Part shown: positions 4,301-33,029 of the stretch, piece by piece
How positions within the stretch are numbered: the first letter of the stretch is position 1
Layout of the letters: each line of letters opens with the position of its first letter
Made by a program: the position numbers and the translations under genes
The notes under the pieces: generated by a model
What the model was told of the DNA's origin: nothing
The model's input: only the letters and a program-made list of their open reading frames with translations
Databases searched by the model: none
Virus record (IMG/VR): IMGVR_UViG_3300047476_000319
Span: 1-33,029 of that record
Strand: one strand, 5' to 3'
DNA length: 33,029 nucleotides
From: a virus

Positions 4301-7300
4301 ATGTTTGAACCGTATGGTTTGGTAGGTGGTTTAAGCGTCGGAATACCTGCTGTACAAGTTATCGATGAAAATGGTAACATTATCAGCAATGTCGCTACTA
4401 CTGGTAATGTATCTGCTAACATAGTAACCGCCAATGCGTTTAAATTTGCCAACGGCGCAAATTTTACAACGCAAGCTGCCGGCACCAACACACAAGTTCA
4501 ATTCAACGACAATAACAATTTTGCCGGTGATGCGAACTTTACATTTGATAGTACGCAAGCATTATTAACAGTAAGTAATTTGAATATCACTGGCTTAACG
4601 TCTTTGGGTGATATCAGTAACGTTACTATACTAGGTGGAAACAACGGGTACTTTTTACAAACAGACGGCGCTGGTGTACTAACATGGGCACCAGCTAGCG
4701 GCGGTGGTGGTGGTAACGGAACACCTGGCGGTGCTAATACTCAAGTTCAATACAATAAATCGGGTGAGTTTGGTGGTGATTCTGGATTTACGTACAATGA
4801 CACTACTAATACTTTACAAGCAAGTTACATTAATGCTACGACCTTTACAGGTAATTTAGTAGGTAACGCATCAAGAGCCGGAACAGTAACTACAGCGGCA
4901 CAACCTAATATTACAAGTCTCGGCACGTTGACAACGTTGTCAGTAGCAGGAGCAATAACAGCAACAGGAAATATATCCGGGTCCAATGCTAATTTAGGAA
5001 ACACTGTAATAGCAAATTACTTTGTAGGTAATTTCTATGGATCAGCAAATACAGCACAGACGGTAACAGCTAGTTCACAGCCTAATATTACTGAAGTCGG
5101 AACGCTAACTTCATTAGAAGTATCAGGGAACGCAAATATTTCAGAATTATCAGTAACGCAGTTTACTAGTGATTTGATACCCGATACTGACGTAACATAT
5201 GACATTGGTAATACGTCATCTAGATGGAAAGATTTATACCTATCAGGTAACTCTATATACTTAGGTAATTCTACGATAACATCTACTGCTAATGGTATAT
5301 CTATCAATGGTGGTAATGGTGTAGTTGTTGCTCAAAACTTAACACAAGTTCCGGCAGCAAACATTGTAGGTCAAGTAGCAAACGCATTAGTCGCAGGAAC
5401 GGTATACACAAACGCACAGCCAAATATTACAAGTGTCGGTACTCTAACTGGGTTAAATGTTAATGGTAATATTGTTGCTGGTAACTCAGTAACAGCTAAT
5501 TACTTTGTCGGAAGACTATACGGCGCCGCCAATACAGCAGGCACAGTAACTACAAATGCTCAGCCTAATATAACGAGTATTGGAACTCTAGTAAGTTTAT
5601 CAGTAGCAGGAAACGTAACTGCTGGAAACATTTCTGGTGGTAATTTAGTAAGTGCTAATTATCTATCAGGTACATTAACTACTGCGGCACAAGCGAACAT
5701 AACAACACTAGGTACCTTAACTCAACTAAACGTAGATGGTAATCTAGTAGCGGCAAACATTACTAGTAATACCGGAATAATAAGCGGCAATGGATCCGGA
5801 TTACATCATATAACTGGTGCTAATGTAACAGGTACCGTTGCTAATGCGACATACGCAGTATCAGCAAACAGTGCTAATGTAGCATCTACTGTATCTTCAA
5901 ATGCTCAACCAAACATTACTAGTGTTGGTACATTAGTTTCACTATCTGTTACCGGCAACGTCACTGCTGGAAATGCTAATTTAGGAAATAGCGTAGTTGC
6001 TAATTTCTTTGTTGGTGATGGTGGTTTATTAAGTAATCTTCAGATTTCTAATGCTAGTGTAAGTAATGCCAATTATGCTTCTTATGCTGGTAACATAACA
6101 ATAGCCGGACAGTCAAATATTACTACAGTAGGTAATCTTACCAATCTAACTGTTGTAGGAAACAGTCAGTTAGGTAATGTAGCCACTGCTAACTTGTTTG
6201 TCGGTAATTTAACTGGGTATGCTAACACAGTAACAGAAAACGCACAACCAAATATTACTAGTGTTGGTACATTAGTATCGTTGGCTGTAACTGGAAATAT
6301 AAATGCCGGTAACGTACAAGGGGGTAATCTAGTAAGTGCTAATTATCTATCAGGTACATTAACTACTGCCGCTCAGTCAAATATTACAACAGTTGGTACG
6401 TTAAATAGTTTATCGGTCAATGGTAATATAGTAGCATCAAACATCACTGCTAACACAGGTGTTATTACTGGTAATGGCTCTGGACTACATCACATAACTG
6501 GTGCTAATGTAACAGGTACCGTTGCTAATGCTACATATGCCTTATCTGCTAACTACTCAGCCTTCGCAGGATTTGTCACTAACAATGCTCAACCGAATAT
6601 ATCTAGTGTCGGACCGTTAGTTACACTAGAAGTTGATGGTAACATTTATGTTAACACAAATTCTTTCTTAGGTAACATTGCTTACGCAAATTACTTTGTG
6701 GGTAATGGCAATGGACTTAGTAACATTAATGGTTCTAACGTAACACAAGTTGCTAACGCTAATTACGCAACATATGCTGGCCAAGCTAACTTTGCGAATA
6801 CAGTAACTGTAAATGCGCAGCCTAACATCACTAGTGTAGGTAATCTAACGTCATTGGTAGTCACTGGACAAGCAAACTTTACAGGTAATTTAAGAAGCAC
6901 AGGTAATTTAAGAGCAGTAGGTAATGTTAACTTTGGCGGCAGTCCAAACATATATTTAGGAGACATAGCAAACCTACATATTGCTGGAGGCTTTGCTAAC
7001 TATGTGTTGACTACTGGAGGTTCTGGTAATCTACAATGGACGTCTAGTGGTTCTATTGGTCTTTCTCCCGGTGGTGCCAATACATCCGTTCAGTATAATG
7101 CTAATGGTGTGTTTGGTGGTAGTAACGCATATTTGTTTGACCCTGATAGCAACACATTAACATTAACTGGAAATTTTGTATCCGACGCATTACAAATGGG
7201 CGTCGGGGCAAACGCTTTTTATAAATCTACTGTTTATGCGGCAACCACTGTTAGTATGGATCCAGACCAATTATTATGGTCAGTGCCAGTATCCGAGATT

Positions 7301-19615: not shown

Positions 19616-22333
19616 ATGGCATTAACGACAATACAACCTTATAATATTAACACAGTAGCTACATTCAGTTTCACGGATGTGGCTGCTACCGACGTTTCTG
19701 CCACCGGTAATGTTGAAGCTACAGGTAATGTTTCAGGTGATTATTTTATCGGCAACGGTTCTAGCTTAACACATTTGAACGGAGCCAACGTAACAGGTGA
19801 AGTAGATTATGCGGCTACTGCTAACAGTGTAGCCGGATCTAATGTTTCAGGTGAAGTAGATTATGCCGCAGTTGCTAACAGTGTAGCAGTAGCAAATGTA
19901 TCAGGTATCGGTAACATAGCTACTATAAATTTAGATGGCAACGCAGGTAATATATTATATGGCAATGGTGTATTTTCTTCTGCCCCAAATGTAGAGAACG
20001 CCAATACAGCTAATTATGCTAGTGTCGCTAATTCTATTACTGGCTCAAATGTTTCTGGAGAAGTATCTTTTGCTAATACCGCTAATAGTGTAGCCGGCGC
20101 TAATGTATCTGGGGCAGTTGCTTATGCGACTACTGCTAACTCAGTAGCAGGCGCCAATGTAAGCGGAGCAGTTGGGTTAGCCACATACGCAACAACAGCT
20201 AACTCAGTCGCGGGAGCTAATGTAAGTGGTCAAGTTAACTTTGCAGCAACAGCAAACAGTGTAGCAGGAGCTAATGTAAGTGGTCAAGTATCGTATGCCG
20301 CAGTAGCTAATAGTGTATCAGTTGCTAATGTATCAGGTATCGGCAACATCGCTGTACTAAATTTAGATGGTAATTCAGGTAATATACTATACGGTAACGG
20401 TTCTTTTGCTACAGCACCAAACGCAGAATATTCAAATATAGCAAATACTGCCGGTACAGTTACAACTAATGCTCAGCCTAACATCACTAGTGTAGGCACA
20501 TTAACTATTTTAACATCTACAGGTAACATCACTGGCGGCAATCTAGTAACTGCCGGATCAGCCAATGTGGGCAGTGGTATCAGTGTCAGTGGTGGCGGCG
20601 CAAGTATTATAGGTGCTGTTGGTATTACTGGTGATATTAATGTTACTGGTAACTTTAACGTATCAGGTAATCTAAATTATCAAAATGTAACTGATTTAGT
20701 AGTTGGAGATCCATTGATATATCTTGCTGCCAACGGTGTAGGGGATACAGACGATATAGGTATTGTTGGTAACTACAACGACGGAGCATATAGACATACC
20801 GGACTAGCGAGAGATCATAGTGATGATATTTGGAAATTCTTTACTGACTTAGCGCCTGAACCAACTACCGTGATTGATTGGGCTAACGCTAGTTACCCCA
20901 CAGTTAAAGTGGGCAATTTACTATCTGCTAATTTAACAGGTACTGGTTGGGCAAATATAACAGGTAACGTCACTGCTGGAAATGCTAATTTAGGTAATGC
21001 AGTAACTGCTAATTACTTTGTCGGTAGCGGTGCTAACTTGTCAAGCATTGCCGGAGCAAACGTCACTGGTGCTGTTAGTTATGCGACTACTGCTAATAGT
21101 GTAGCAGGAGCCAATGTATCAGGGGCCGTATCATACGCAACAACAGCAAACAGTGTAGCCGGTGCTAACGTATCGGGGGCAGTAGGATTAGCTACATATG
21201 CTACTACTGCTAACTCAGTAGCCGGTGCTAACGTATCAGGAGCTGTTAGTTATGCGACTACAGCTAACTCAGTAGCCGGTGCTAACGTATCAGGAGCTGT
21301 TAGTTACGCGACTACAGCTAACTCAGTAGCCGGTGCTAACGTAAGTGGTACTGTTGGTAGTGCGACTACAGCAGGTACTGTAACAACTGCAGCACAACCA
21401 AACATAACAAGCACAGGTACATTGTCTAGTGTTAACTCGTCAGGCAACGTAACAGCACCTAACGTAGTAGCAAACACGGGCGCATTCTATGGTTCTGGTG
21501 CTGGATTATCAAGCATACCAGCCGGTAACTTAACCGGTACAATTGATAATGCTAGAGTTAACGGTCAAACATATACAATAAATATCACTGGATCTGCTGG
21601 AACAGCAAGTACAGTAACAACTGCGGCTCAACCTAACATCACTAGTGTTGGTACACTATCTAGTGTTTCTGTTTCTGGAACATCAACGCTACCTCAGATT
21701 TTGGTTAACAGAAGTTCAGGTGCCGGTACTGGTATATCTTGGTATTCTAGTAGTTATTCGGCCTGGACTGATTATATGTCATCCGCAGGAGCAACAGGTT
21801 GTGGTCCTTTTGGTAATATTACAGCACCTAGCGGCAACTTAGTCACTAACTGGGGCCTAAGAAGTTTTATCGAAGATGCTTCAGGTTATGGATGGACATG
21901 GGAATCTGGTTCGGCGCAACAAACAACTCCTACGATTAAAGCAGAAATTCGTTCAAGTGACGGGTCATTCAGAAACACAGGTAATATCTATTGTGTAGGT
22001 GACGTTATCACTAACTACTCTGATGTCAATTTGAAAGATATCATCGGTCCTATTGAAAACGCAGTAGAAAAAGTATGTGCTATTGAAACTTTCTACTATC
22101 GTCCTAATCAAATAGCAAAAGACTTAGGTGTAGCTGATGAACTTCAAGTTGGTGTCAGCGCACAATCTGTCAAACGAGTTGCTGAAGAAACTACTAGACC
22201 CAGCCCAATTAATGATAAGTACTTAACGGTTATGTATGAAAGATTGGTTCCATACTTGATAGAATCAATCAAAGAACATGAAAAAACAATACAAGACCTA
22301 AAAGAACAAATCAATAGTTTGAAGGGCAAATAA
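19616..22333 (+). CDS. Tail fibre with C-terminal S74-type intramolecular chaperone (905 aa)
   Basis: The N-terminus (ALTTIQPYNINTVATFSF) differs from the KPLN anchor. GANVSG/ATTANSVA repeats cover about residues 56-232 and 479-582. Between them lie a GNAGNILYGNGVFSSAPN-type spacer repeated twice and a VVGDPLIYLAANGVGDT ... HTGLARDHSDD module (356-435). Three AQPNITS-type repeats follow. Residues about 696-800 form a globular aromatic region (SWYSSSYSAWTDYMSSAG, WGLRSFIEDASG), probably the tip. From 802 comes a canonical S74 start, SDVNLKDIIGPIENAVEKV, continuing to VGVSAQSV and a final coiled coil (LIESIKEHEKTIQDLKEQI). The SD..LK arrangement suggests the chaperone cuts itself off before Ser802. 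The stop overlaps the next gene (TAATG). Confidence 0.88.
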   Translation: MALTTIQPYNINTVATFSFTDVAATDVSATGNVEATGNVSGDYFIGNGSSLTHLNGANVTGEVDYAATANSVAGSNVSGEVDYAAVANSVAVANVSGIGNIATINLDGNAGNILYGNGVFSSAPNVENANTANYASVANSITGSNVSGEVSFANTANSVAGANVSGAVAYATTANSVAGANVSGAVGLATYATTANSVAGANVSGQVNFAATANSVAGANVSGQVSYAAVANSVSVANVSGIGNIAVLNLDGNSGNILYGNGSFATAPNAEYSNIANTAGTVTTNAQPNITSVGTLTILTSTGNITGGNLVTAGSANVGSGISVSGGGASIIGAVGITGDINVTGNFNVSGNLNYQNVTDLVVGDPLIYLAANGVGDTDDIGIVGNYNDGAYRHTGLARDHSDDIWKFFTDLAPEPTTVIDWANASYPTVKVGNLLSANLTGTGWANITGNVTAGNANLGNAVTANYFVGSGANLSSIAGANVTGAVSYATTANSVAGANVSGAVSYATTANSVAGANVSGAVGLATYATTANSVAGANVSGAVSYATTANSVAGANVSGAVSYATTANSVAGANVSGTVGSATTAGTVTTAAQPNITSTGTLSSVNSSGNVTAPNVVANTGAFYGSGAGLSSIPAGNLTGTIDNARVNGQTYTINITGSAGTASTVTTAAQPNITSVGTLSSVSVSGTSTLPQILVNRSSGAGTGISWYSSSYSAWTDYMSSAGATGCGPFGNITAPSGNLVTNWGLRSFIEDASGYGWTWESGSAQQTTPTIKAEIRSSDGSFRNTGNIYCVGDVITNYSDVNLKDIIGPIENAVEKVCAIETFYYRPNQIAKDLGVADELQVGVSAQSVKRVAEETTRPSPINDKYLTVMYERLVPYLIESIKEHEKTIQDLKEQINSLKGK
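21211..21343 (+). repeat. Near-perfect 54-bp tandem repeat in the 905-aa fibre gene
   Basis: Units at 21211-21264 and 21265-21318 differ at one position (tat versus tac), and a 25-bp partial third copy follows. The unit encodes NSVAGANVSGAVSYATTA in rotated phase. Neighbouring units encode the same peptide with different codons, so this pair is a recent expansion. Confidence 0.88.
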
Positions 22334-23466
22334 TGGGATTCTATGTAGGTAATAGCGGCAACGCAAATGTAAACGCAACTTCTAGTGGATTTAAGGCACC
22401 GGTATTCACCTCATCGACATTGCCCGCTAGTCCAGTCGAAGGACAAGTAATTTATAATTCTACTACCCAGTACATGCAGGTGTACGCTAACGGTAGTTGG
22501 AATAACTTGGGGGTATTTCCCGGAACAGCAGGTTATCCATACAGACAAATAATTGTAAAGAGTTTTGTTATGGGTGGATATCAAAATACTAGCCCATGGC
22601 GAAATGTAAACAAGATGGTACACAGTACAGATGTGTGTACTAACTTAGGCGATCTGTTAAGTTATGCAGGAGTATACACAAGTGGTGTTAATAACCTAAC
22701 CAGAGGTTTCTTGTGGAGTACAGACGGTTCATTCCCTGGAGCAAGCACAACTACAAGTGCAATTAATATGAACACCGAGACTACAGCCGGTACCAATGCT
22801 AATTGGAATACTAGAATTGCTAGAGATGACATGGGCACTGGATTCAAAGAAACTGAATTTGCTTATATCGTAGGTGGTGGATCAGCCGTATTTGATATTT
22901 TTAATCTTACAACCGAAACTATGTATTACGGAACACCTATGTACTTACCATTTGATACGGTGTTGTCTTATACTGCACAAGGTAGTGGTGATACAAGTGC
23001 TGTAAGCGATGAAAACGCATGTTGGTTTTGGGCTACAGGCCCATTGAACACAAAACTTTCGTTCAACACTCATACTTTTACAAGCAATGGATTAGTGGCT
23101 GCAGCTGGTGGATTGCGAGGTTCTTCTATTGGCGGAGCACACGGACAACAAAAGGGTATTAATAGTAAATGGGGTCGTGGTTATGCTGGTGGAAATGGTA
23201 GCTGGAACGGCGGCTATATATTAAATCGCATGGTGTTCTCGACAGAAACATCCACCACAATCAATAAGCCAATCGGTAATACCGGCGAAGAGAATTTTGA
23301 CATGGGACAAAACTGGCAGTATATGATGGGCTGTTATGATGGAGCACAAAACAACAGAGGTTGGAAGTTTACATATGCTACTGACTTGGGTGTCGAACTA
23401 GGTTCAGGAAGCGTAAGAACCGGCGTACCTGGCGGCAGTTCTGGTCATTGCGTTTGGAGCACATAA
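22333..23466 (+). CDS. Propeller-like fibre/adhesin protein, trio B member 1 (377 aa)
   Basis: First of three tandem paralogues. The N-terminus has a common phage fibre module, LPASPVEGQVIYNSTTQYM, followed by W. The body has recurring S-T-[DE] turns about every 45-60 residues (HSTDVCTNLGDL, NMNTETTAG, NLTTETMYYG, VFSTETSTTI) next to Gly-Gly strands, as in kelch-like beta-propellers. The C-terminus is highly conserved: GEENFDMGQNWQYMMG, DGAQNNRGWKFTYATD, ELGSGSVRTGVPGGSSGHC. It is more diverged from members 2 and 3 than they are from each other. A fibre-tip or carbohydrate-binding role is inferred. TAATG overlaps occur at both ends. Confidence 0.75.
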   Translation: MGFYVGNSGNANVNATSSGFKAPVFTSSTLPASPVEGQVIYNSTTQYMQVYANGSWNNLGVFPGTAGYPYRQIIVKSFVMGGYQNTSPWRNVNKMVHSTDVCTNLGDLLSYAGVYTSGVNNLTRGFLWSTDGSFPGASTTTSAINMNTETTAGTNANWNTRIARDDMGTGFKETEFAYIVGGGSAVFDIFNLTTETMYYGTPMYLPFDTVLSYTAQGSGDTSAVSDENACWFWATGPLNTKLSFNTHTFTSNGLVAAAGGLRGSSIGGAHGQQKGINSKWGRGYAGGNGSWNGGYILNRMVFSTETSTTINKPIGNTGEENFDMGQNWQYMMGCYDGAQNNRGWKFTYATDLGVELGSGSVRTGVPGGSSGHCVWST

Positions 23467-24536
23467 TGGCATTTTCTATAGGTAGCAACAACATAATGAC
23501 AGTAAACGGCTTGGTAATGCCAATATATACCACAGCCACTAGACCAGCGAATCCTGTGATCGGACAAGTCATATACAATTCTACTACAGCCTACATGGAA
23601 AGATTCGATGAAGGAAATGTATGGAGACCTGTTATATATTCCGGGGCTCTACTGTACAGACAGATTATTACAACTAGCTATGTTGCTGGCGGATACAAAG
23701 ACAGCAGTCCTTGGAAAAACGTTAATAGAATGACACATAGTACTGATGTTATGGTTAACCTAGGTGATCTGTTAGCGACGGCAGCTAACTATACTTCGGG
23801 AGCATGTAGCCTAACAACAGCTTTTATGTGGTGTGCCTCACCTGACGCATTTCCTACAACACCAACTAATACTACAGTAGCATTTGCCATGACTACTGAA
23901 ACAACATTAGGTACAGCAACTCGGTGGAATTTAGGTAACGCAAGAAATGACTGCGGAACTATATTTAAAGAAACAGAATATGCTTATGTCACCGGCGGCG
24001 GTCCAGCTGCAGTGGACGTATTTAATCTTAGTACAGAAACTGTTACAGCAGGTGGCGTATCCGGACAAACGGGTGACGCCTCTTATCAGAATGGTGTTAG
24101 CGCATTCAGCGGGGAATTCGTAGGATATTGGTGGGGTAGTAGTGGTCAAAAACTTACGTTCAGTACAGGAACATCGTACACCGTCGCAGATGCGTCTGGG
24201 GTAAGTACTAATGGACAGCAAAAAGGTATCTCAAGTAAAGTAGGTAGAGGATATATGGGTAATGAAGGTACGTACAATGGCGGGTACAATTTACGTAGAT
24301 ATGTAATCTCAACCGATTCGTACACTACTGTTGCCAAACCTGTAGGTAATTCAGGAGAAGAAAACTTTGACATGGGTCAAAATTGGCAGTATATGATGGG
24401 TATGTACGATGGAGCACAAAACAACAGAGGTTGGAAGTTTACCTACGCAACTGATAGTGGTTATGAATTAGGCTCTGGTAGTGTACGTACGGGTGTCGCA
24501 GGTGGCAGTTCTGGTAACTGTTTCTGGAGAAGTTAA
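23466..24536 (+). CDS. Propeller-like fibre/adhesin protein, trio B member 2 (356 aa)
   Basis: The start at 23466 is chosen over an in-frame ATG at 23448. It gives MAFSIGSNN, matching the MAF/MGF starts of both siblings, it overlaps the previous stop by one base (TAATG), and a GGAG ribosome-binding site precedes it. Landmarks are TRPANPVIGQVIYNSTTAYM, GGYKDSSPWKNVNRMTHSTD, RNDCGTIFKETEYAYVTGGG, WWGSSGQKLTFSTGTSYT and GEENFDMGQNWQYMMGMYDG. Recurring STD/STE turns suggest several blades of a beta-propeller. It is closest to member 3, sharing DNA tracts of more than 30 identical bases. It is followed directly by member 3 with no gap. Confidence 0.78.
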   Translation: MAFSIGSNNIMTVNGLVMPIYTTATRPANPVIGQVIYNSTTAYMERFDEGNVWRPVIYSGALLYRQIITTSYVAGGYKDSSPWKNVNRMTHSTDVMVNLGDLLATAANYTSGACSLTTAFMWCASPDAFPTTPTNTTVAFAMTTETTLGTATRWNLGNARNDCGTIFKETEYAYVTGGGPAAVDVFNLSTETVTAGGVSGQTGDASYQNGVSAFSGEFVGYWWGSSGQKLTFSTGTSYTVADASGVSTNGQQKGISSKVGRGYMGNEGTYNGGYNLRRYVISTDSYTTVAKPVGNSGEENFDMGQNWQYMMGMYDGAQNNRGWKFTYATDSGYELGSGSVRTGVAGGSSGNCFWRS

Positions 24537-25607
24537 ATGGCATTCAAGCTAAATTCTAATATTGTATTATCAAACGATGGCATAAACATACCGGTGTTTG
24601 CCGGCAATGCTAGACCAGCAAACCCTGTTACAGGACAGGTTATCTACAATTCATCTACTAACATCATGGAGATATATGATGGTGGTTTGTGGAAGGATGT
24701 GACACAGAACGCTAGTGGAACTGCATTTTTATATAGACAACTTATATCAACTAGTTATGTTGCAGGTGGGTATCAAAGTGCTAGCCCATGGAAAAACGTA
24801 AATCGAATGAGCCAAAGTACCGATATTATGACTAATTTAGGTGACTTGTTATCGATAGCAGCCAACTATACATCAGGCGCGAATAGCTTAACTACTGCTT
24901 ATATGTGGTGTGCATCTCCAACATGGGACGGAACAGCAGTTGCTACAGTAGCATATAATATGGCTACTGAAACAAGCGCTGGCTCATTATCATCATGGAA
25001 TATGCCAGTTGCACGTAACGATTGTGGTACAATATTCAAAGAAACACAATATGCTTATGTAACAGGGGGCAGTAGCGCAGATGTTAGTGTTTGGACATTC
25101 TCAACCGAGAGTTTTTCATCTGGTGCTGTATCTGGACAAACAGGTGATTCCTCTTATCAGTATGGTGTTGCGTCAATCAGTGACGAGACCTCAGGTTACT
25201 GGTGGGGTAGTAGTGGTCAAAAACTTACGTTTGGTACAGGTACTACATACACAATAGCTAATGCTGCCAACGTTAACGTTAATGGACAGCAAAAAGGTAT
25301 CTCAAGTAAATTAGGCTTTGGATACTTTGGTAATGAAGGTGGATATAACGGCGGATATAATCTTAGAAAGTACATAACTAGTACTGATACATATACTACT
25401 ATTCCTAAACCTATAGGTAATTCAGGAGAAGAGAATTTTGACATGGGACAATATTGGCAGTATATGATGGGTATGTATGACGGAGCACAAAACAACAGAG
25501 GTTGGAAGTTTAGTTACACAGCCGATACAGGATATGAGCTTGGTTCGGGAAGTACAAGAACAGGGGTTCCGGGAGGAAGTTCTGGGCACTGTGCGTGGAA
25601 GGCATAA
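24537..25607 (+). CDS. Propeller-like fibre/adhesin protein, trio B member 3 (356 aa)
   Basis: The ATG follows the previous stop with no gap, after a GGAGAAG ribosome-binding site. It shares ARPANPVTGQVIYNSSTNIM, GGYQSASPWKNVNRMSQSTD, RNDCGTIFKETQYAYVTGGS, WWGSSGQKLTFGTGTTYT and the NNRGWKF C-terminal block with member 2. The most variable stretches lie between the conserved turns, where propeller top loops would be expected. Cysteines are few and mostly conserved (WCAS, NDCG, GHC). No signal peptide is visible, as expected for a virion part assembled in the cytoplasm. The binding target is unknown. Confidence 0.78.
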   Translation: MAFKLNSNIVLSNDGINIPVFAGNARPANPVTGQVIYNSSTNIMEIYDGGLWKDVTQNASGTAFLYRQLISTSYVAGGYQSASPWKNVNRMSQSTDIMTNLGDLLSIAANYTSGANSLTTAYMWCASPTWDGTAVATVAYNMATETSAGSLSSWNMPVARNDCGTIFKETQYAYVTGGSSADVSVWTFSTESFSSGAVSGQTGDSSYQYGVASISDETSGYWWGSSGQKLTFGTGTTYTIANAANVNVNGQQKGISSKLGFGYFGNEGGYNGGYNLRKYITSTDTYTTIPKPIGNSGEENFDMGQYWQYMMGMYDGAQNNRGWKFSYTADTGYELGSGSTRTGVPGGSSGHCAWKA

Positions 25608-25632
25608 GTAGAGTATTAAACCGGAGATATAA

Positions 25633-26397
25633 ATGAAAGATTTCACTACTGAAGTAAGCAACGAACACAGAGCATTAATTGAAAAATCAGCAGACCGTAA
25701 TTTGGTTATGCCTGAATTCAAAGTAAAAAACTTTGTGGGTAACGCACAAATTACTCCATACGCAAAGTTAAAACAGTATATAATTGAATTGAACGGCCGC
25801 GAAATGGCAGTTGAGAATATGATCTATGAATACAAAAAAATTCAATTAGAAATTCAATTAGAAAAAGAAAAAGCAGAATCCATCAGAGAATCTAGTCCTA
25901 TACAAGCCGCATTGCATGATCTGGAAATTTTTAAAATGGAAGGCGTACTAAAGCGCAGTGAACTTAGATTACGTGACTCAGTACAAGAACGTGATTTGTT
26001 TTTAAAAGTAATTGATGATTTTAACGCAAGCCCGGAAGGTACATTACCCGATGGTACTAAATTAATAGATGCGTTTGATAACCCCGAACTGTGCGAGAAG
26101 TTGGAAAAAGATTATTGGACTCTACGACTAGCTAAACAAACTGCTATGGATATGATAGCATACGGCAGAGCAGGCGTGGGTAACATGGACGCTGTAGTTA
26201 TGTTAGAACCCGACCAACAGTTAGAAGTAATGCGTTTGGCGTGTGATTTCTTTGTAAGAAATGAAATGAGAACAAACAATTTACTAAGTCAGGTTAACCA
26301 AGGTATACAGCAAAATATGTTGCCTAACTCAGCGTTAGTTCAACAGTTAATGTTTAAGGCAGACGATAATGTTCCTAGTGTTCAAAACAGTAAATGA
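25633..26397 (+). CDS. Hypothetical helical phage protein (254 aa)
   Basis: I do not recognise a named family. The protein starts with a short extended region (NLVMPEFKVKNFVGNAQITP), then a long charged helix at about residues 45-125 (KIQLEIQLEKEKAE and onward) that probably forms a coiled coil. Two or three more helices follow (residues about 150-230), with a Gln/Asn-rich C-terminus. There are no membrane segments. A good ribosome-binding site (ggaga) sits 5 nt before the ATG. It lies between the trio B fibre genes and a protein with a fibre-assembly-like domain, so a role in fibre or tail assembly is possible but unsupported by any motif. The next gene probably overlaps its end. Confidence 0.65.
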   Translation: MKDFTTEVSNEHRALIEKSADRNLVMPEFKVKNFVGNAQITPYAKLKQYIIELNGREMAVENMIYEYKKIQLEIQLEKEKAESIRESSPIQAALHDLEIFKMEGVLKRSELRLRDSVQERDLFLKVIDDFNASPEGTLPDGTKLIDAFDNPELCEKLEKDYWTLRLAKQTAMDMIAYGRAGVGNMDAVVMLEPDQQLEVMRLACDFFVRNEMRTNNLLSQVNQGIQQNMLPNSALVQQLMFKADDNVPSVQNSK

Positions 26398-27097
26398 ACA
26401 ACAAATGGGTCTGGTCAAACGTGTTGGCCAGTACCTAGATTATGTTGTGGGATGGTTGGATGATAGTGTTAAAGATATCGTTCCAATCAAACACCTTAAC
26501 GCAACAATCATCGATGATGAAAAAATAGCTATGGCGTGGAAATTTGCCGGAAACTATTCTGGATACATCAGTGTAAGATCAAAGACACTAGCCAATGACC
26601 AATTAGATATCGTCAGTAGCACTGAAGCAGATGGTACAAAAGTTAAATACTATCTAACTGAAGAAGATATAGCAAGCGCCGCGGTCTTTATGAAGATTGT
26701 GTTGCGAAAGATGCTAGATGAAGTTTACGACCGAAGACTTGAACATATAAACGCTGAAGTATCTAGGCTAGAAACTGCGTCTTGGGCTACTCAGTTATCA
26801 GAAGCATGGTCGTATAAAATAGATCATACTGCTAGTGTACCATTGTTGTCATCATTAGCAGAAGCTAGGGGTATATCCAAAGATGATATGGCTGACAAAA
26901 TAACTAAAGCACACGAAGCATATGAAGCGAACATTGCTAAATTATTAGCTAAGAAACAATTAGTCGAAGCTGAAATAAAACAATGTAGTACAGTCAAAGA
27001 ATTAAATGTAGTAATACATAGACGCTTTGGGTACAACATGCCAGCAAAACAACAAGCAGATATGAATTGGGTAGAAAGTTCTGTATACGACCTATAA
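26369..27097 (+). CDS. Putative tail-fibre assembly-like protein (242 aa)
   Basis: Two starts are possible. ATG 26369 gives a 28-29 nt overlap with the previous gene and has a weak AAGG upstream. ATG 26405 gives MGLVKRVGQYLDYVVGW, lies 7 nt after the previous stop, and has no clear ribosome-binding site. The N-terminal half is mixed alpha/beta. The C-terminal half, from about residue 130, reads RLETASWATQLSEAWSYKID, then TASVPLLSSLAEARGISKDD, then a helix. That order of a W..Q..EA...Y helix and a TP.L..LA..RG turn resembles the C-terminal region of DUF4376-type phage tail-fibre assembly proteins. The similarity is by eye. A chaperone or adaptor for the many upstream fibres would fit the context. 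Confidence 0.6.
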   Translation: MFLVFKTVNEQQMGLVKRVGQYLDYVVGWLDDSVKDIVPIKHLNATIIDDEKIAMAWKFAGNYSGYISVRSKTLANDQLDIVSSTEADGTKVKYYLTEEDIASAAVFMKIVLRKMLDEVYDRRLEHINAEVSRLETASWATQLSEAWSYKIDHTASVPLLSSLAEARGISKDDMADKITKAHEAYEANIAKLLAKKQLVEAEIKQCSTVKELNVVIHRRFGYNMPAKQQADMNWVESSVYDL

Positions 27098-27116
27098 GTA
27101 GGCGATATATAGATGC

Positions 27117-28730
27117 ATGTTCTCAATTCCTATAAATCCAAAACTAGATCCAAAACAATTTCAAGAATTTTATGATTTCTTAAAGGATCATAAAGAATTT
27201 ATATACGACTTGTACTTTACTAGTCGTATGCCACCCTTCATTCAAGATGCTATGGGTGATGTTTTTGATATCAATAATACTGCCCCTATCGAGGCAGCAC
27301 TACACATTCAACACACATTGGGTATTCCAGTATCTGCTACGTTCAATAATACATTAGTTCGACCCAGTCAAGAAAACTTAGACTTGTTTATTTCTAATTT
27401 TAGAATGCTCTACGCGGCTGGTGTACGTTCTGCTACAATACCGCACACTCATTGGGTAATGACTGGTCAGCTTCAAAAAGAATTCCCTGAATTGTTTATT
27501 AAGAATACTATTCTTTGGGACACCAACAAAGCTAATGAAGTTGCTAAACTAGCAGAAGCCGGATTTAAGTACGTAAACTTAGACCGTGACTTGATGCGTG
27601 ACCGTGATGAATTGATTAAGATACGCAAAGTTGCTGACAAGTATGGCATCAAAATTAGCTTATTAGCAAACGAAGGGTGTGCTGGCGGATGCCCGGTCAT
27701 GAAAGAGCATTTTCAATTTAACAATACTCGCGGCCAAGATGGTGCTCAGTACTTTAATGATACTATTAGCCGTGTGAGTTGTCCTAAGTGGGATTATGAA
27801 GATCCTAGTAGTATGTTGAAGACTGCCAACTTCCCACCTTGGAAAGAAGATTGGGACGAGTTACTACAATATGCTGACGTAATCAAGATGCATGGTCGTG
27901 AATCTATCGATAGATTATACGAGACAATGAATATCATTAAACGCTACAAAAACAACGAAGAATACTTGTTTGATACGTTTGAAGAATACATCCAAGATAC
28001 TAATCTAGCCGGCAAACCAATCAATGCTTGGCGAGACAAGATAAAGAATTGTAAGTTTGATTGCTGGGATTGCGACTATTGCGATAAGATATATCAAGCA
28101 AAGTCAAAAGAAGTAGCGCATCCAAAAATAATTACAGTAACAGAAGAATTAGTAAACTCAGCTAATATTGACCTAGATATTAAAGTAGAAGGATTAACGA
28201 GCCCTAGAGTTCAGAAATTATTGTACGCACTCGCAAAACGCAGTAGCAACTATCTAGAAGTAGGCAGTGCAATGGGGGCTACAGCAACTGCGGTTGCCCA
28301 AGCGGGAATAAACATGCACTGTGTTGACAGTTGGACAACTGACATTCAACCCATGAGTGAAGAATTTGAATTACCCGATAATACTAAAAAGGTCTTTCTG
28401 GATAATTTAAAAGGATACAATGTCAACGTTCACGACACTGATTTGTTTAATGTAGACAAGTCGAAAATTAAAGATATTGATTTGTTTTTCTACGATGGTC
28501 CTCATGACATAGAGACTACAATGAAAGCAGTCAAATACTATAGTGAGTGTTTTGCGGATACTGCCATATTGATATTTGATGATGCTAATTGGATGGGCGT
28601 AGTTCAAGGAGCAGAGATGGGTATAGGATTAGCTAAACTGAAGAAACTATATTCTAAGATGATGCTCAACAGCCCTGAGAATAAGACACAATGGTGGAAC
28701 GGCCTGTATATTGTAGTGGTACAAAAATGA
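27117..28730 (+). CDS. U32-like Fe-S barrel protein fused to a class I methyltransferase (537 aa)
   Basis: Two domains are visible. Residues 1-330 alternate strands and helices like the TIM-type barrel of the U32 family (IPVSATFN, VRSATIPH, YVNLDRDLMRD). They include the family-like NEGCAGGCP (C188, C192), SCPKW (C222) and VIKMHGR near 255-261, comparable to the KIEGR motif of U32 proteins, and end in a Cys cluster C312, C316, C319, C322. U32 enzymes bind a 4Fe-4S cluster and hydroxylate RNA bases or quinone rings. Residues about 335-537 form a Rossmann methyltransferase: YLEVGSAMGATATAV (SAM loop, 379-393), CVDSW (402-406), DLFFYDGPHD (455-464), LIFDDANW (485-492). The stop overlaps the next start (ATGA). 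Substrate unknown; hydroxylation followed by methylation is an inference. The strain of evidence is motif-level only. Confidence 0.75.
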   Translation: MFSIPINPKLDPKQFQEFYDFLKDHKEFIYDLYFTSRMPPFIQDAMGDVFDINNTAPIEAALHIQHTLGIPVSATFNNTLVRPSQENLDLFISNFRMLYAAGVRSATIPHTHWVMTGQLQKEFPELFIKNTILWDTNKANEVAKLAEAGFKYVNLDRDLMRDRDELIKIRKVADKYGIKISLLANEGCAGGCPVMKEHFQFNNTRGQDGAQYFNDTISRVSCPKWDYEDPSSMLKTANFPPWKEDWDELLQYADVIKMHGRESIDRLYETMNIIKRYKNNEEYLFDTFEEYIQDTNLAGKPINAWRDKIKNCKFDCWDCDYCDKIYQAKSKEVAHPKIITVTEELVNSANIDLDIKVEGLTSPRVQKLLYALAKRSSNYLEVGSAMGATATAVAQAGINMHCVDSWTTDIQPMSEEFELPDNTKKVFLDNLKGYNVNVHDTDLFNVDKSKIKDIDLFFYDGPHDIETTMKAVKYYSECFADTAILIFDDANWMGVVQGAEMGIGLAKLKKLYSKMMLNSPENKTQWWNGLYIVVVQK

Positions 28731-29338
28731 CAAAGCGATTTCCTGTATTAAGTGCCGATATATTTTATAGAAACGTCGGCACACCAGAACAACGACAAGA
28801 TTTAATTGACCAGGCATTAGCTGAACAAGCAAGAAATTCCCAGACAGTCGCATGGACTAATCGAGGGTGCTGGAGAAGTTATTTTCAGTACAATAACATT
28901 GAATGGCTGAAGAAGGAACTCAATGAAATGGTCGCGGAAGCCGGCAATTACTATCAAGAAATAGATCCTATCTATAAGAGAAAAACAAAAAGTTTTGTAG
29001 GTAGTGAATTAAAATATTGGACTAACATCAACAAGCCTGGCGGTCGCAATGCCATGCACGAACACAAATTATGGCATTACGTTGCTTGCTATTATTTACA
29101 AGCAGAAGACACAGGGGACATTGTGTACTTCAACCCTATTAATTTAACTGAAGGATGTAATCCATATGCCCCCTTCGTAAGTCCAATGTCGTTCTCGCCT
29201 AAAGATGGGGATTTATTGATGTGGCCCGCGTGGCTTCCCCATGAAGTAGAAATGAATATGTCTGATAAATCTAGAATAAACATTGCCTTCAACATCAGAT
29301 TTCAAGCACCAGTGAGTTTAGAAGATGCGGAAGATTGA
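28727..29338 (+). CDS. 2OG-Fe(II) oxygenase-like protein (203 aa)
   Basis: The start at 28727 (ATGA overlap with the methyltransferase fusion) is preferred to the upstream in-frame ATG at 28691, because MTKRFPVLSADIFYRN is the natural start of this family. The C-terminal half has a double-stranded beta-helix layout: NAMHEHKLWHYVACYYLQ with candidate iron ligands H111/H113, GDIVYFNP, GDLLMWPAWLPHEVEMN with H172, and SRINIAFNIRF with R183 as the likely 2-oxoglutarate anchor. This resembles the TIGR02466-type putative 2OG-Fe(II) oxygenases that are frequent in marine T4-like phages. Such enzymes couple 2-oxoglutarate decarboxylation to hydroxylation. The substrate is unknown. It overlaps the next gene by 14 nt. 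Confidence 0.8.
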   Translation: MTKRFPVLSADIFYRNVGTPEQRQDLIDQALAEQARNSQTVAWTNRGCWRSYFQYNNIEWLKKELNEMVAEAGNYYQEIDPIYKRKTKSFVGSELKYWTNINKPGGRNAMHEHKLWHYVACYYLQAEDTGDIVYFNPINLTEGCNPYAPFVSPMSFSPKDGDLLMWPAWLPHEVEMNMSDKSRINIAFNIRFQAPVSLEDAED

Positions 29339-30083
29339 ATTTTATAGTGATGTGTACGGGTTAGTAGACACTGTACCTATATTGAAGCCAGTAGATTGCT
29401 TACCTAAATGGGTATCTACAGTACGAGCAGACTACAAACAAAGTAACAAAGAGAAACCACATTTGTATAGATGCCCAGGTATATTCGATTTGTTTAACTA
29501 TGGTTATATAGTATCAGCATGGCATGACATAACATTGAATACTGACGGTGAACAATATGGTTGGGAAATACCTAGCAAAGAGCTATTGAACTATAAATTG
29601 AACGGTGATTTGGCTTCAGCGCATAGTCACAAAGACGTTGCTAAGTATTTACCTAGACCTAAATGGACACACCCCAGTGTATTGAAACTAAACACGCCGT
29701 GGCATGTTATAGCGCCTAAAGGAGTTAAATTGTTAATAACTAGTCTACCATACCCTGACTCATATGAGTTTGAAGCATTGACTGGGATTTTAGATCCAAG
29801 TATCAGTACAGAAATCAATATTCAATTGAATTGGAATACGCCAATTGGCACAGGCAGAATCACAGCAGGCACACCGCTAGCACACATTATTCCATTGAGT
29901 GAAGAAACGTTTGAATTAGTAGTTAGAGATAAAAACGCTAACGATGAAATATGGTCTAAAAAACGTAATTTTGTCAATAGCATGAGTTACATATTAAATC
30001 GTTCTAGGATCAAGAAAATGTATGACAATCATTTTCATAAAGAAGAACCTAAGAAATGCCCCTTTCACTTTTGGAGAAAATAA
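29325..30083 (+). CDS. Hypothetical protein, DUF6065-like (252 aa)
   Basis: The protein carries a YRCPGIFDLFNYGYIVSAWH block (residues 48-67), followed by an extended beta-rich region (GVKLLITSLPYPDS, EINIQLNW, GRITAGTPLAHIIPLSEE) and a basic helical C-terminus with KKCPFHFW at the end. The CPG..D.....GYIV..W.D pattern and the beta-barrel middle recall DUF6065 proteins found in phages and bacteria. I am moderately sure of the resemblance and know of no assigned function. It overlaps the oxygenase gene by 14 nt and abuts the membrane protein gene with no gap, so it belongs to the same translational unit. The His-rich NHFHKEE plus the terminal Cys could bind metal. Confidence 0.65.
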   Translation: MRKIEFYSDVYGLVDTVPILKPVDCLPKWVSTVRADYKQSNKEKPHLYRCPGIFDLFNYGYIVSAWHDITLNTDGEQYGWEIPSKELLNYKLNGDLASAHSHKDVAKYLPRPKWTHPSVLKLNTPWHVIAPKGVKLLITSLPYPDSYEFEALTGILDPSISTEINIQLNWNTPIGTGRITAGTPLAHIIPLSEETFELVVRDKNANDEIWSKKRNFVNSMSYILNRSRIKKMYDNHFHKEEPKKCPFHFWRK

Positions 30084-31139
30084 ATGAGTTTAGAGTTATT
30101 AAAGGGATTAGAATATCTTTGGTTGATATTCTTTATTATGATTGTTTCTGGTATAGCAAAAGAACAGAATCTTTTCATGCCGGTTTATTCCTACATTAAA
30201 TCAGCATTTAAAAGCAATCGTGTAGTATTGTTTTTAATTAGTGCTGTCAGTGGTGTACTTCCCATTGAGGGTCGAGTTACTGTATCAGCAGGAGTATTAG
30301 ATACAATTACCAAAAAAGATTGTTCATGTGGTCATGACCATGGTCGTCAGCGAATGGGTATAGTAGATTATCTAGCAACGCATCATTACTATATGTGGTC
30401 TCCGTTAGAGAAAACGGTTATATTGCCAATGGCTATGTTTGGCATAGGGTATACCGCTTGGCTCGGTATAGTTTGGCCTATATTAGCGGTTAGTTTGTTG
30501 TTTATTTTCTATTACATATTCACTCAAGTCAAAGAAGATGATATAGAAATTGACTTTGTTCCATTCAAAATAAGCTCCGTAATACGTAATGTTCTACCTT
30601 TCTTTGTCGCAATAGCTGCCTATATCTATGTGGGCGGAAACACAAATGTTTTCCCTATATTTGGATGTTTAGCATTATGGTACATGTTCTTGACACAGAC
30701 ATGGGATATTAAGAAATTACTAAGCTATATCAATTGGGAAGTCATACTAACTGTTGCGGCTGTGATAGTTTTAGGTAACTATTTAAAGTCGCATAGCGCA
30801 TATTTTACTGATATGATTAAATCTGCTGGAGTAGACCCTGCGACATTTTATGGTATGACTATCATATCATTGTTTGGATTTGCCGCTAGCTTTTTGATGG
30901 GTTCTAGTGGTAAATTTGTTGCTCTTGCTGTGCTAATGTCAACGGTCTTTGGTCATCAATACTTTTTATGGTTTTTTGCGGTAGACTTTGTGGGGTATTT
31001 AATAAGCCCTACACACAAGTGTGTTATGGTCGGAAATAGATATTTCGGCACTTCTATCAAGCAATACTTCACGGTTTTAGGTATTTGGGGACTGTTATTA
31101 CTAGGATCTGCTGGAACGTTCACATTCATAGGGGCATAA
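30084..31139 (+). CDS. DUF401-like multi-pass membrane transporter (351 aa)
   Basis: Roughly nine or ten hydrophobic segments are visible, for example residues 8-25, 47-63, 111-149 (two), 168-185, 190-206, 218-233, 253-305 (two or three) and 328-350. SGVLPIEGRVTVSAGVLD (56-73) and LISPTHKCVMVGNRYFG (306-322) resemble the paired re-entrant or helix-break motifs of DUF401 proteins, which belong to the citrate/ion transporter superfamily. A loop after segment 2 contains C80, C82, H84 and H86 (DCSCGHDHGRQR), a potential metal site. The gene starts at the base after the previous stop with a GGAGA ribosome-binding site. A full-length inner-membrane transporter is unusual inside a phage fibre locus. 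It could move an anion, metal or small organic substrate during infection; none can be named. Confidence 0.75.
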   Translation: MSLELLKGLEYLWLIFFIMIVSGIAKEQNLFMPVYSYIKSAFKSNRVVLFLISAVSGVLPIEGRVTVSAGVLDTITKKDCSCGHDHGRQRMGIVDYLATHHYYMWSPLEKTVILPMAMFGIGYTAWLGIVWPILAVSLLFIFYYIFTQVKEDDIEIDFVPFKISSVIRNVLPFFVAIAAYIYVGGNTNVFPIFGCLALWYMFLTQTWDIKKLLSYINWEVILTVAAVIVLGNYLKSHSAYFTDMIKSAGVDPATFYGMTIISLFGFAASFLMGSSGKFVALAVLMSTVFGHQYFLWFFAVDFVGYLISPTHKCVMVGNRYFGTSIKQYFTVLGIWGLLLLGSAGTFTFIGA

Positions 31140-31202: not shown

Positions 31203-33029
31203 ATGTCTTTAATTTTAAAACAAGAAGCCGCAAACACAGTACCGACACCCGCTGCCGGGAAAGGTACGATATTTTTAGACGACAACGATCAGATTGCTGT
31301 CAAAACATCAGGAGGGAACACTAGTGTTTTCCCCGCCGTTACAACCAGCAACACACAAGTATTTTATAACGATCAGGGCAGTTTAGCCGGATCCAACGCA
31401 TTTGTCTTTAATGATACGTCCAACACCGTAACGGTAGCAAATCTCACCGTTACTGACACACTAATAGCAGGTGATATCGCAGTTTCATCTATTGCTAACG
31501 GTACAAGTAATGTTGATATTGTAGGCGTTAGTGGAAACGTAACAATAAGTGTAGCAGGTAATGCTAATATTCTCACAGCGACTGGTACCGGGGTCAACGT
31601 TGCGGGTACGTTGAATTCTACTGGCAACGCAAACGTAGGAAATATTGGTGCTACAGGTGGTGTGTTTACTACTGTAGCTGGATCACTAACCACAGCATCA
31701 CAGCCAAATGTCACTAGCGTTGGTACACTTACATCATTGGGGGTCAATGGTACAATTACCGGGGTAAATATAACAGCTAATACAGGAGTATTCACTGGTA
31801 ATGGATCAGGTTTAACTAATATTGCCGGAGCAAACGTCACCGGTGCTGTTAGTTATGCGACTACTGCGAACGCAGTAGCCGGCGCTAATGTGTCAGGAGC
31901 AGTAGCATACGCAACAACTGCCAACTCAGTCGCCGGAGCAAACGTAAGCGGAGCAGTATCATACGCTACCACTGCCAACAGTGTAGCTGGAGCTAACGTA
32001 TCAGGAGCTGTTGGCTTAGCTACATACGCATCAACAGCGAATGCTATAGCAGGTGCTAACGTATCAGGCGAAGTAGGTTTTGCGGCAGTAGCTAATTCAG
32101 TAGCCGGAGCAAATGTATCCGGTCAAGTAAACTATGCGGCAACAGCGAATGCTGTAGCAGGTGCTAACGTATCGGGTCAAGTAGGAAACAGTCTAGTAGC
32201 AGGAACTGTATATACGGCAGCACAACCAAATATCACATCCGTTGGAACTTTAACTTCGGTTGATGTGACCGGTAATACTGTCTCTGGAAATGTATACGCT
32301 AACTCAGGGACAATTGGCGCTAGCTTATTAACTGGTACACTAACAACTGCCTCACAACCTAACATAACAAGTACTGGAACTCTAACCTCATTGTCAGTAA
32401 CAGGTACCGCTTCTGCTGGAAATTTAATCACAGGTGGAACTCTGTCAGTAACTGGTAACGCCAACGTTGGCAACATGGGTGCGGCAGCCGGGGTATTCAC
32501 CGCTAACGTTTCAGCAAACAATCTATCAACTACAAACAAAGTAACTGCTGGTAATGGACTACAAGTTACTACGGGTGCTCTTACTATCTTGTCAGGTAAC
32601 CTAGATATCACCGGTAATTTAAATGTAACTGGTAACGTAAACTATAGTAATGTAACTGACTTGGTTGTAGGGGATCCATTGATTTATATCGGTGAAGATA
32701 ACTCCGGCGACACGGTCGATTTAGGTATAGTTGCTAGCTATAATAACGGGTCATACGTACATACCGGTCTTGCTAGAAATGCTGCAACTGATTACTGGAC
32801 ATTCTTTGATGGTGTAGCGGCGGAACCAACAACAGTAATCGACTGGGCTAACGCAACATATCCTACTGTAAAAATGGGAGCATTGCTGTCTACTTCTACA
32901 GTAACTGGTACACGACTAATATCTAATATAGCAACCGGTACAGCACCATTAGTAGTATCATCTACTACACAAGTTGCTAACTTAAATGCGGCGACCGCAG
33001 GTCTAGCAACATACGCAACAACTGCGAAC
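31203..33029 (+). CDS. Repeat tail fibre protein (3' partial, 609 codons in window)
   Basis: An open frame runs from ATG 31203 to the right edge without a stop. The N-terminus SLILKQEAANTVPTPAAGKG, then TIFLDDNDQIAVKTSGG, is a fibre start I associate with marine T4-like phages and differs from the KPLN anchor. Then come an NTQVFYNDQGSLAG module (about 60), three AQPNITS-type repeats, a run of GANVSG/ATTANSVA units (about 210-330), and a VVGDPLIYIGEDNSGDT ... HTGLARNAATDYW ... EPTTVIDWANAT module (about 483-560) shared with the two S74 fibres. By analogy an S74 or similar C-terminus may lie past the window. The ribosome-binding site is taggaag. The late promoter at 31177 serves it. Confidence 0.88.
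   Translation, partial: MSLILKQEAANTVPTPAAGKGTIFLDDNDQIAVKTSGGNTSVFPAVTTSNTQVFYNDQGSLAGSNAFVFNDTSNTVTVANLTVTDTLIAGDIAVSSIANGTSNVDIVGVSGNVTISVAGNANILTATGTGVNVAGTLNSTGNANVGNIGATGGVFTTVAGSLTTASQPNVTSVGTLTSLGVNGTITGVNITANTGVFTGNGSGLTNIAGANVTGAVSYATTANAVAGANVSGAVAYATTANSVAGANVSGAVSYATTANSVAGANVSGAVGLATYASTANAIAGANVSGEVGFAAVANSVAGANVSGQVNYAATANAVAGANVSGQVGNSLVAGTVYTAAQPNITSVGTLTSVDVTGNTVSGNVYANSGTIGASLLTGTLTTASQPNITSTGTLTSLSVTGTASAGNLITGGTLSVTGNANVGNMGAAAGVFTANVSANNLSTTNKVTAGNGLQVTTGALTILSGNLDITGNLNVTGNVNYSNVTDLVVGDPLIYIGEDNSGDTVDLGIVASYNNGSYVHTGLARNAATDYWTFFDGVAAEPTTVIDWANATYPTVKMGALLSTSTVTGTRLISNIATGTAPLVVSSTTQVANLNAATAGLATYATTAN
31830..32170 (+). repeat. GANVSG / ATTANSVA coding repeats
   Basis: About seven tandem units with core AVAGANVSGAVSYATTAN lie in the partial fibre gene. 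The first unit is nearly identical at DNA level to one in the 905-aa fibre gene (31831 onward versus 21051 onward). Confidence 0.8.

Follow-up and report, generated by a model that had tools for sequence, protein, structure and literature searches.

The 33,029-nucleotide stretch of viral DNA analyzed here (the window) encodes a putative inner-membrane transporter that is a divergent member of the DUF401 family, within a phage-specific and N-terminally shortened branch, and in many related phages the corresponding gene lies beside, or is fused to, a gene for an outer-membrane barrel. For the window itself the claim is one of membership of the transporter family, the two-membrane cassette being seen in relatives only. 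We propose, with moderate confidence, that the transporter supplies the inner-membrane part of a two-membrane uptake route encoded by the phage.

The window consists of T4-like phage DNA with genes for a head maturation protease, a major head protein, fibre and baseplate-related proteins and a 2OG-Fe(II) oxygenase. The transporter gene is a complete ORF within a tightly packed same-strand gene run (22333-31139), its start directly abutting the end of the upstream neighbour, and hydropathy analysis identified its product as the sole multi-pass membrane protein in the window. The initial annotation had counted nine or ten hydrophobic segments in this protein; 7 to 10 were obtained here, the number varying with the threshold applied. 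Its description of a transporter among fibre genes is true of the window but not of the relatives, which occupy several different neighbourhoods. Late-promoter-like ATAAATA sites were found before the genes at 4301, 7584 and 31203, and a scan of the window revealed none directly before 30084; the gene run itself is the basis on which late expression of the transporter is presumed. The features of the window were assigned as follows.

28691..29338, + strand: 2OG-Fe(II) oxygenase gene, part of the transporter's gene run and upstream of it (profile matches)
29325..30083, + strand: upstream neighbour abutting the transporter, phrog_7084, listed without function (ORF and PHROG match)
30084..31139, + strand: putative phage DUF401-type inner-membrane transporter, 351 aa (ORF, PF04165, phrog_14035, predicted ion-transporter-superfamily fold)
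30249..30275, + strand: first hairpin tip, S56-R64, SGVLPIEGR (model and alignment)
30321..30341, + strand: Cys/His loop, residues 80-86, CSCGHDH, non-conserved and of low confidence (model and alignment)
30378..30413, + strand: broken helix with T99-K110, THHYYMWSPLEK (model and alignment)
30897..30914, + strand: second hairpin tip, M272-K277, MGSSGK (model and alignment)
31005..31022, + strand: second helix break, S308-C313, SPTHKC (model and alignment)
31203..33029, + strand: fibre-like repeat protein, downstream, leaving the window at its end (ORF)

The window protein matched DUF401 (PF04165) with an E-value of 2.3e-8 and 34.3 bits against a gathering cut-off of 24 bits, and seven further phage members scored 26.9-46.9 bits. 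A match to phrog_14035 (E=2.4e-81) places it with the direct family members of PHROG 14035, including Synechococcus phage proteins (S-CAM4, S-H25, metaG-MbCM1), while its score of 39.3 bits lies below the TIGR00529 equivalog cut-off of 378.4 bits. The PF04165 match begins at profile position 62, the N-terminal approximately 60 profile residues being absent. The corresponding residues, a region in which cellular DUF401 proteins have at least two hydrophobic segments, are likewise missing from the phage members, all 72 distinct examples of which are 340-363 aa long as against 396-431 aa for cellular DUF401. As these residues are not demanded by the Pfam cut-off, their absence marks a shortened branch. 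At eight loci, including L085:5619-5969, the gene just upstream of the transporter encodes a 116-aa protein with several hydrophobic segments; this protein, which matched no family, could act as a stand-in for the missing N-terminal helices.

An AF2 model of the window protein, built from 27 aligned relatives, had a pLDDT of 85.8 and a pTM of 0.85. Searching the PDB by sequence gave no match, and the best PDB matches of the model in Foldseek were VcINDY, Pho90, TRAP membrane subunits, NaS1 and ArsB, with a VIA Z of 23-24 over about 340 residues for comparison with NaDC3, NaCT, VcINDY and Pho90. The model has the fold of the ion-transporter superfamily (VcINDY/DASS), and this together with the PF04165 match bears out the DUF401 and superfamily membership proposed in the initial annotation. 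Two re-entrant hairpins and two broken helices are present in the model, as in the DASS carriers VcINDY, NaCT, NaDC3 and Pho90, and the predicted transport half is complete (hairpin 45-75, broken helix 88-119, helix 123-148, hairpin 255-289, broken helix 291-321 and last helix 325-349), with a pLDDT below 50 at residues 61-69 of the first hairpin tip. The phage protein differs from these carriers in that identity is about 10-13% and the first helices are missing, the structural alignment beginning at VcINDY residue 85 so that the first ~84 residues have no counterpart. Moreover, the S-N-T sodium-site motifs of VcINDY are absent at both hairpin tips, which read LPIEGR and MGSSGK, and the window protein is therefore not filed as a DASS member proper.

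Conservation was assessed over 93 phage and 26 cellular proteins, with 72 distinct phage homologues as a smaller set; the cellular DUF401 sample derived from two plasmids and from one Atribacterota genome and its phylum. Conserved sites of the phage family fall at the two hairpin tips and the two helix breaks (LPIxGR, THHYYxWSPLEK, GSSxK and SPxHKC). The phage proteins have the DUF401 features of an S-P-x-H-x-C motif and first-hairpin glycine and proline, and residues G57, S68, H100, P107, G273, P309, H311 and C313 are common to phage members and to cellular DUF401/TIGR00529 proteins of the same Pfam family, such as WP_025436672.1 from a Peptoclostridium plasmid. P60 and S308 are nearly invariant across the same proteins, so that both break motifs noted in the initial annotation (G57, P60 and S68 in the first, S308-P309-x-H311-x-C313 in the second) proved invariant or nearly so. 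Apart from being shorter and without the N-terminal segments, the phage proteins differ from cellular DUF401 in a set of residues invariant in phages: R64 (G in 26/26 cellular proteins), H101 (I or V in the 26), K110 (mostly P), K277 (mostly A) and K312 (L in 26/26), with E109 also invariant in phages only. The substrate site of VcINDY is formed by the two hairpin tips and two helix breaks. The occurrence of phage-specific basic residues at these very sites suggests, from alignment, that the substrate may be more anionic than that of the cellular proteins.

A C80-x-C82-x-H84-x-H86 cluster in a loop had also been noted. The letters are present in the window protein, but the loop is absent in close homologues: C82 occurs in 1/72 distinct phage homologues with a gap in the other 71, and in the larger phage set (n=93) C82 is found in one protein, with a gap in the other 92, C80 in nine and H84 in seven. 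Positions 80, 82 and 84 are gaps in 26/26 cellular proteins, and residues 80-84 of the model have a pLDDT below 50. A metal-binding loop was accordingly rejected as an idiosyncrasy of the window protein, not conserved and located in a low-confidence loop.

Relatives of the transporter were identified in IMG/VR at 31 loci and then in 152 stretches, and nine Synechococcus phage records carry relatives at 35-37%. The transporter is widespread in phages, many of them aquatic. A DUF401 protein is already on record in Ralstonia phage RP12, and this protein (36% identity) was the closest structural match in a structure search. In the openly licensed literature, no paper combining DUF401 and phage was found, and none was found whose title or abstract has DUF401 function as its topic. 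A tree separated phage from cellular proteins with full support, although its root is unsure given the long branches. The statement that DUF401 occurs in cellular organisms is correct for the family, but the branch of the window protein is a phage lineage. Searching the species-genome collection with phage-family patterns gave no relative, and on this scope, with cellular DUF401 sampled from Atribacterota and two plasmids, a recent bacterial donor was rejected; a plasmid search with the window protein likewise gave no match. Over 102 close pairs dN/dS had a median of 0.08 and a maximum of 0.13, indicating strong purifying selection on the phage transporter.

Gene content around the transporter differs between relatives, yet the +1 gene is very often a secreted barrel. 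A signal-peptide barrel was found at the same-strand +1 position in 33/63 cases compared to 52/1058 other genes, an odds ratio of 21 obtained with a crude signal-peptide rule and from related loci that are not independent. Overall, about half of the transporter loci have an adjacent outer-membrane barrel and about half do not. Six unrelated barrel families occupy the neighbour slot; a TonB-box-like start, where one is given, is a pattern read by eye.

OMP_b-brl group, ~190 aa: 19 loci
Barrel of ~290 aa with a TonB-box-like start (LPxVxVTA)
TonB-dependent siderophore-type receptor, 717 aa: loci L023 and L025
Protein of 584 aa with a TonB-box-like start and a very weak plug match
TorF porin
DUF2490-like protein, slightly below cut-off

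The gene for the siderophore-type receptor is complete and lies 10 bases downstream of the transporter gene (L023:8176-10329 and L025:9030-11183), on a contig with phage genes close by. Its product matched the plug domain PF07715 (9.7e-13) and the TonB-receptor barrel PF00593 (2e-43) and scored 198.3 bits against a TIGR01783 cut-off of 223.5 bits, so that 'siderophore-type' denotes likeness rather than filing. The openly licensed literature searched yielded no report of a comparable phage TonB receptor. The ~290-aa secreted barrel-like family (L084:7085-7951, L106:7080-7946, L195:3001-3855 and relatives) gave no Pfam or PHROG match over cut-off, and no plug was detected.

The association was also evident when the barrels were used as the starting point. 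Viral contigs contained the 290-aa family at 48 loci, three of which end at a contig edge and could not be evaluated, and the transporter was adjacent or fused in 45/45 of the remainder (25 with the barrel first, 17 with the transporter first and 3 fused). The transporter similarly adjoined the 717-aa receptor in 3/3 and the 584-aa type in 4/4 evaluable cases. For the ~190-aa barrels, whose alignment was too diverse for scanning, single members served as queries, and the transporter was adjacent in 5/5 and 2/2 loci checked for two representatives. Neither in the window nor in its seven closest relatives does a barrel gene adjoin the transporter; in several of these, the window included, the +1 gene is fibre-like, and that of the window (31203..33029) fills the slot where many relatives carry the barrel. 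The two main barrel families were not found in 16 contigs without an adjacent barrel, which are fragments and include no positive control, nor was a TonB plug in 18 such contigs, the records again being fragments, and no barrel linkage was visible in the three cyanophage loci examined.

In one clade, represented by three loci with two distinct sequences, transporter and barrel form one ORF.

L184:2185-3810: fused transporter-barrel ORF
L189:911-2551: fused transporter-barrel ORF
L188:1-1200: fused transporter-barrel ORF

In these ORFs the sequence after the last transmembrane helix reads ..TTEAKA/DVIEEVIVEGKEYPQF or ..SSAVNA/EEKEQIVEEVVVVSAG, the cut sites being read by eye, and this helix occupies the position of the signal peptide of separate barrel genes. 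If the barrel is exported, the C terminus of the transporter would lie outside the cytoplasm, where that of VcINDY also lies. The fusion argues strongly for a functional link between transporter and barrel.

Transport activity, import and an anionic substrate are inferred from these observations. The putative inner-membrane secondary transporter would most likely import a small anion, either organic or a chelate, with its transport half moving in elevator fashion. In many relatives the outer-membrane half would be the barrel encoded beside, or fused to, the transporter, whether this is a TonB-dependent receptor, a small porin-like barrel or one whose start resembles a TonB box. In the lineage of the window the host's own outer-membrane proteins may serve as the outer half. 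A phage location and an uptake role had been suggested in the initial annotation and are supported by HMM matches, by the fold and by the genes that surround the transporter in relatives. Bacterial TonB-dependent siderophore uptake loci likewise have an outer-membrane receptor or porin gene beside an inner-membrane carrier gene; the arrangement here differs in being phage-encoded, in having a DUF401-type carrier and an interchangeable partner, and in being fused in one clade, and no TonB-like gene was noticed close to the transporter.

Outer-membrane proteins such as FhuA-type receptors serve as phage receptors. The 717-aa partner matches FhuA, and partners are exchanged frequently: the partner label switches 24 times on the transporter tree, and in L085 compared to L084, and L097 compared to L106, near-identical transporters with the same flanks have the barrel swapped between the 290-aa and 584-aa types. 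Swaps of this kind between near-identical transporters favour the two-membrane cassette. Frequent exchange is also as an arms race predicts, and the barrels might mask or replace host receptors in superinfection exclusion or surface remodelling, with the inner-membrane protein assisting or accompanying them. This explanation appears unlikely, however, as it does not account for a constant part that is a carrier with conserved substrate-site architecture and a variable part that is the barrel, nor for their fusion. It is slightly more improbable that the carrier works as an exporter of a metabolite or a toxic anion, in the manner of ArsB, with the barrel as exit. The superfamily includes exporters (ArsB), so the fold leaves direction unfixed, and the structural matches of the model include, besides ArsB, MtrF and YdaH, exporters of the AbgT type; the TonB-dependent receptor and TonB-box-like starts among the partners nevertheless indicate uptake, and it is from these that the import direction is derived. 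An ion leak or scaffold, in which the shortened carrier alters membrane potential late in infection, would accord with loss of the ~60 N-terminal residues in all phage members but is very improbable, both hairpin tips and both helix breaks being complete and conserved and an outer-membrane partner being needless for a leak.

Within the preferred reading of uptake through both membranes, some neighbouring genes touch on the substrate. Nine loci of related phages, L084:8041-8478 among them, have a ferritin-like (Dps-type, PF00210) gene in the +1 or +2 position. A TctC-type (tripartite tricarboxylate receptor) gene lies on the minus strand three genes from the transporter of a phage contig (L101:3522-4490). 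As a separate observation, a tryptophan-halogenase-like gene (L014:4256-5785; PF04820, 3e-94) belongs to a cluster found near the transporter in 19 loci. The siderophore-type receptor and the Dps-type gene, each in single lineages, point weakly to iron, and an iron chelate as the transporter substrate is a guess. The most specific version of the proposal is a doubtful one: a phage uptake system across both membranes, serving an iron chelate or comparable anion in short supply and made up of the DUF401 carrier, an outer-membrane receptor (in many cases TonB-linked) and a Dps protein in a single lineage, with the last helix of the carrier serving as signal peptide of the receptor in the fusions.

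The repeated linkage and fusion of this transporter to unrelated barrels are strong genomic evidence for a phage-driven change of uptake through the entire Gram-negative envelope during infection, and offer a first lead to the function of DUF401 and PHROG 14035, both of which are listed without function.
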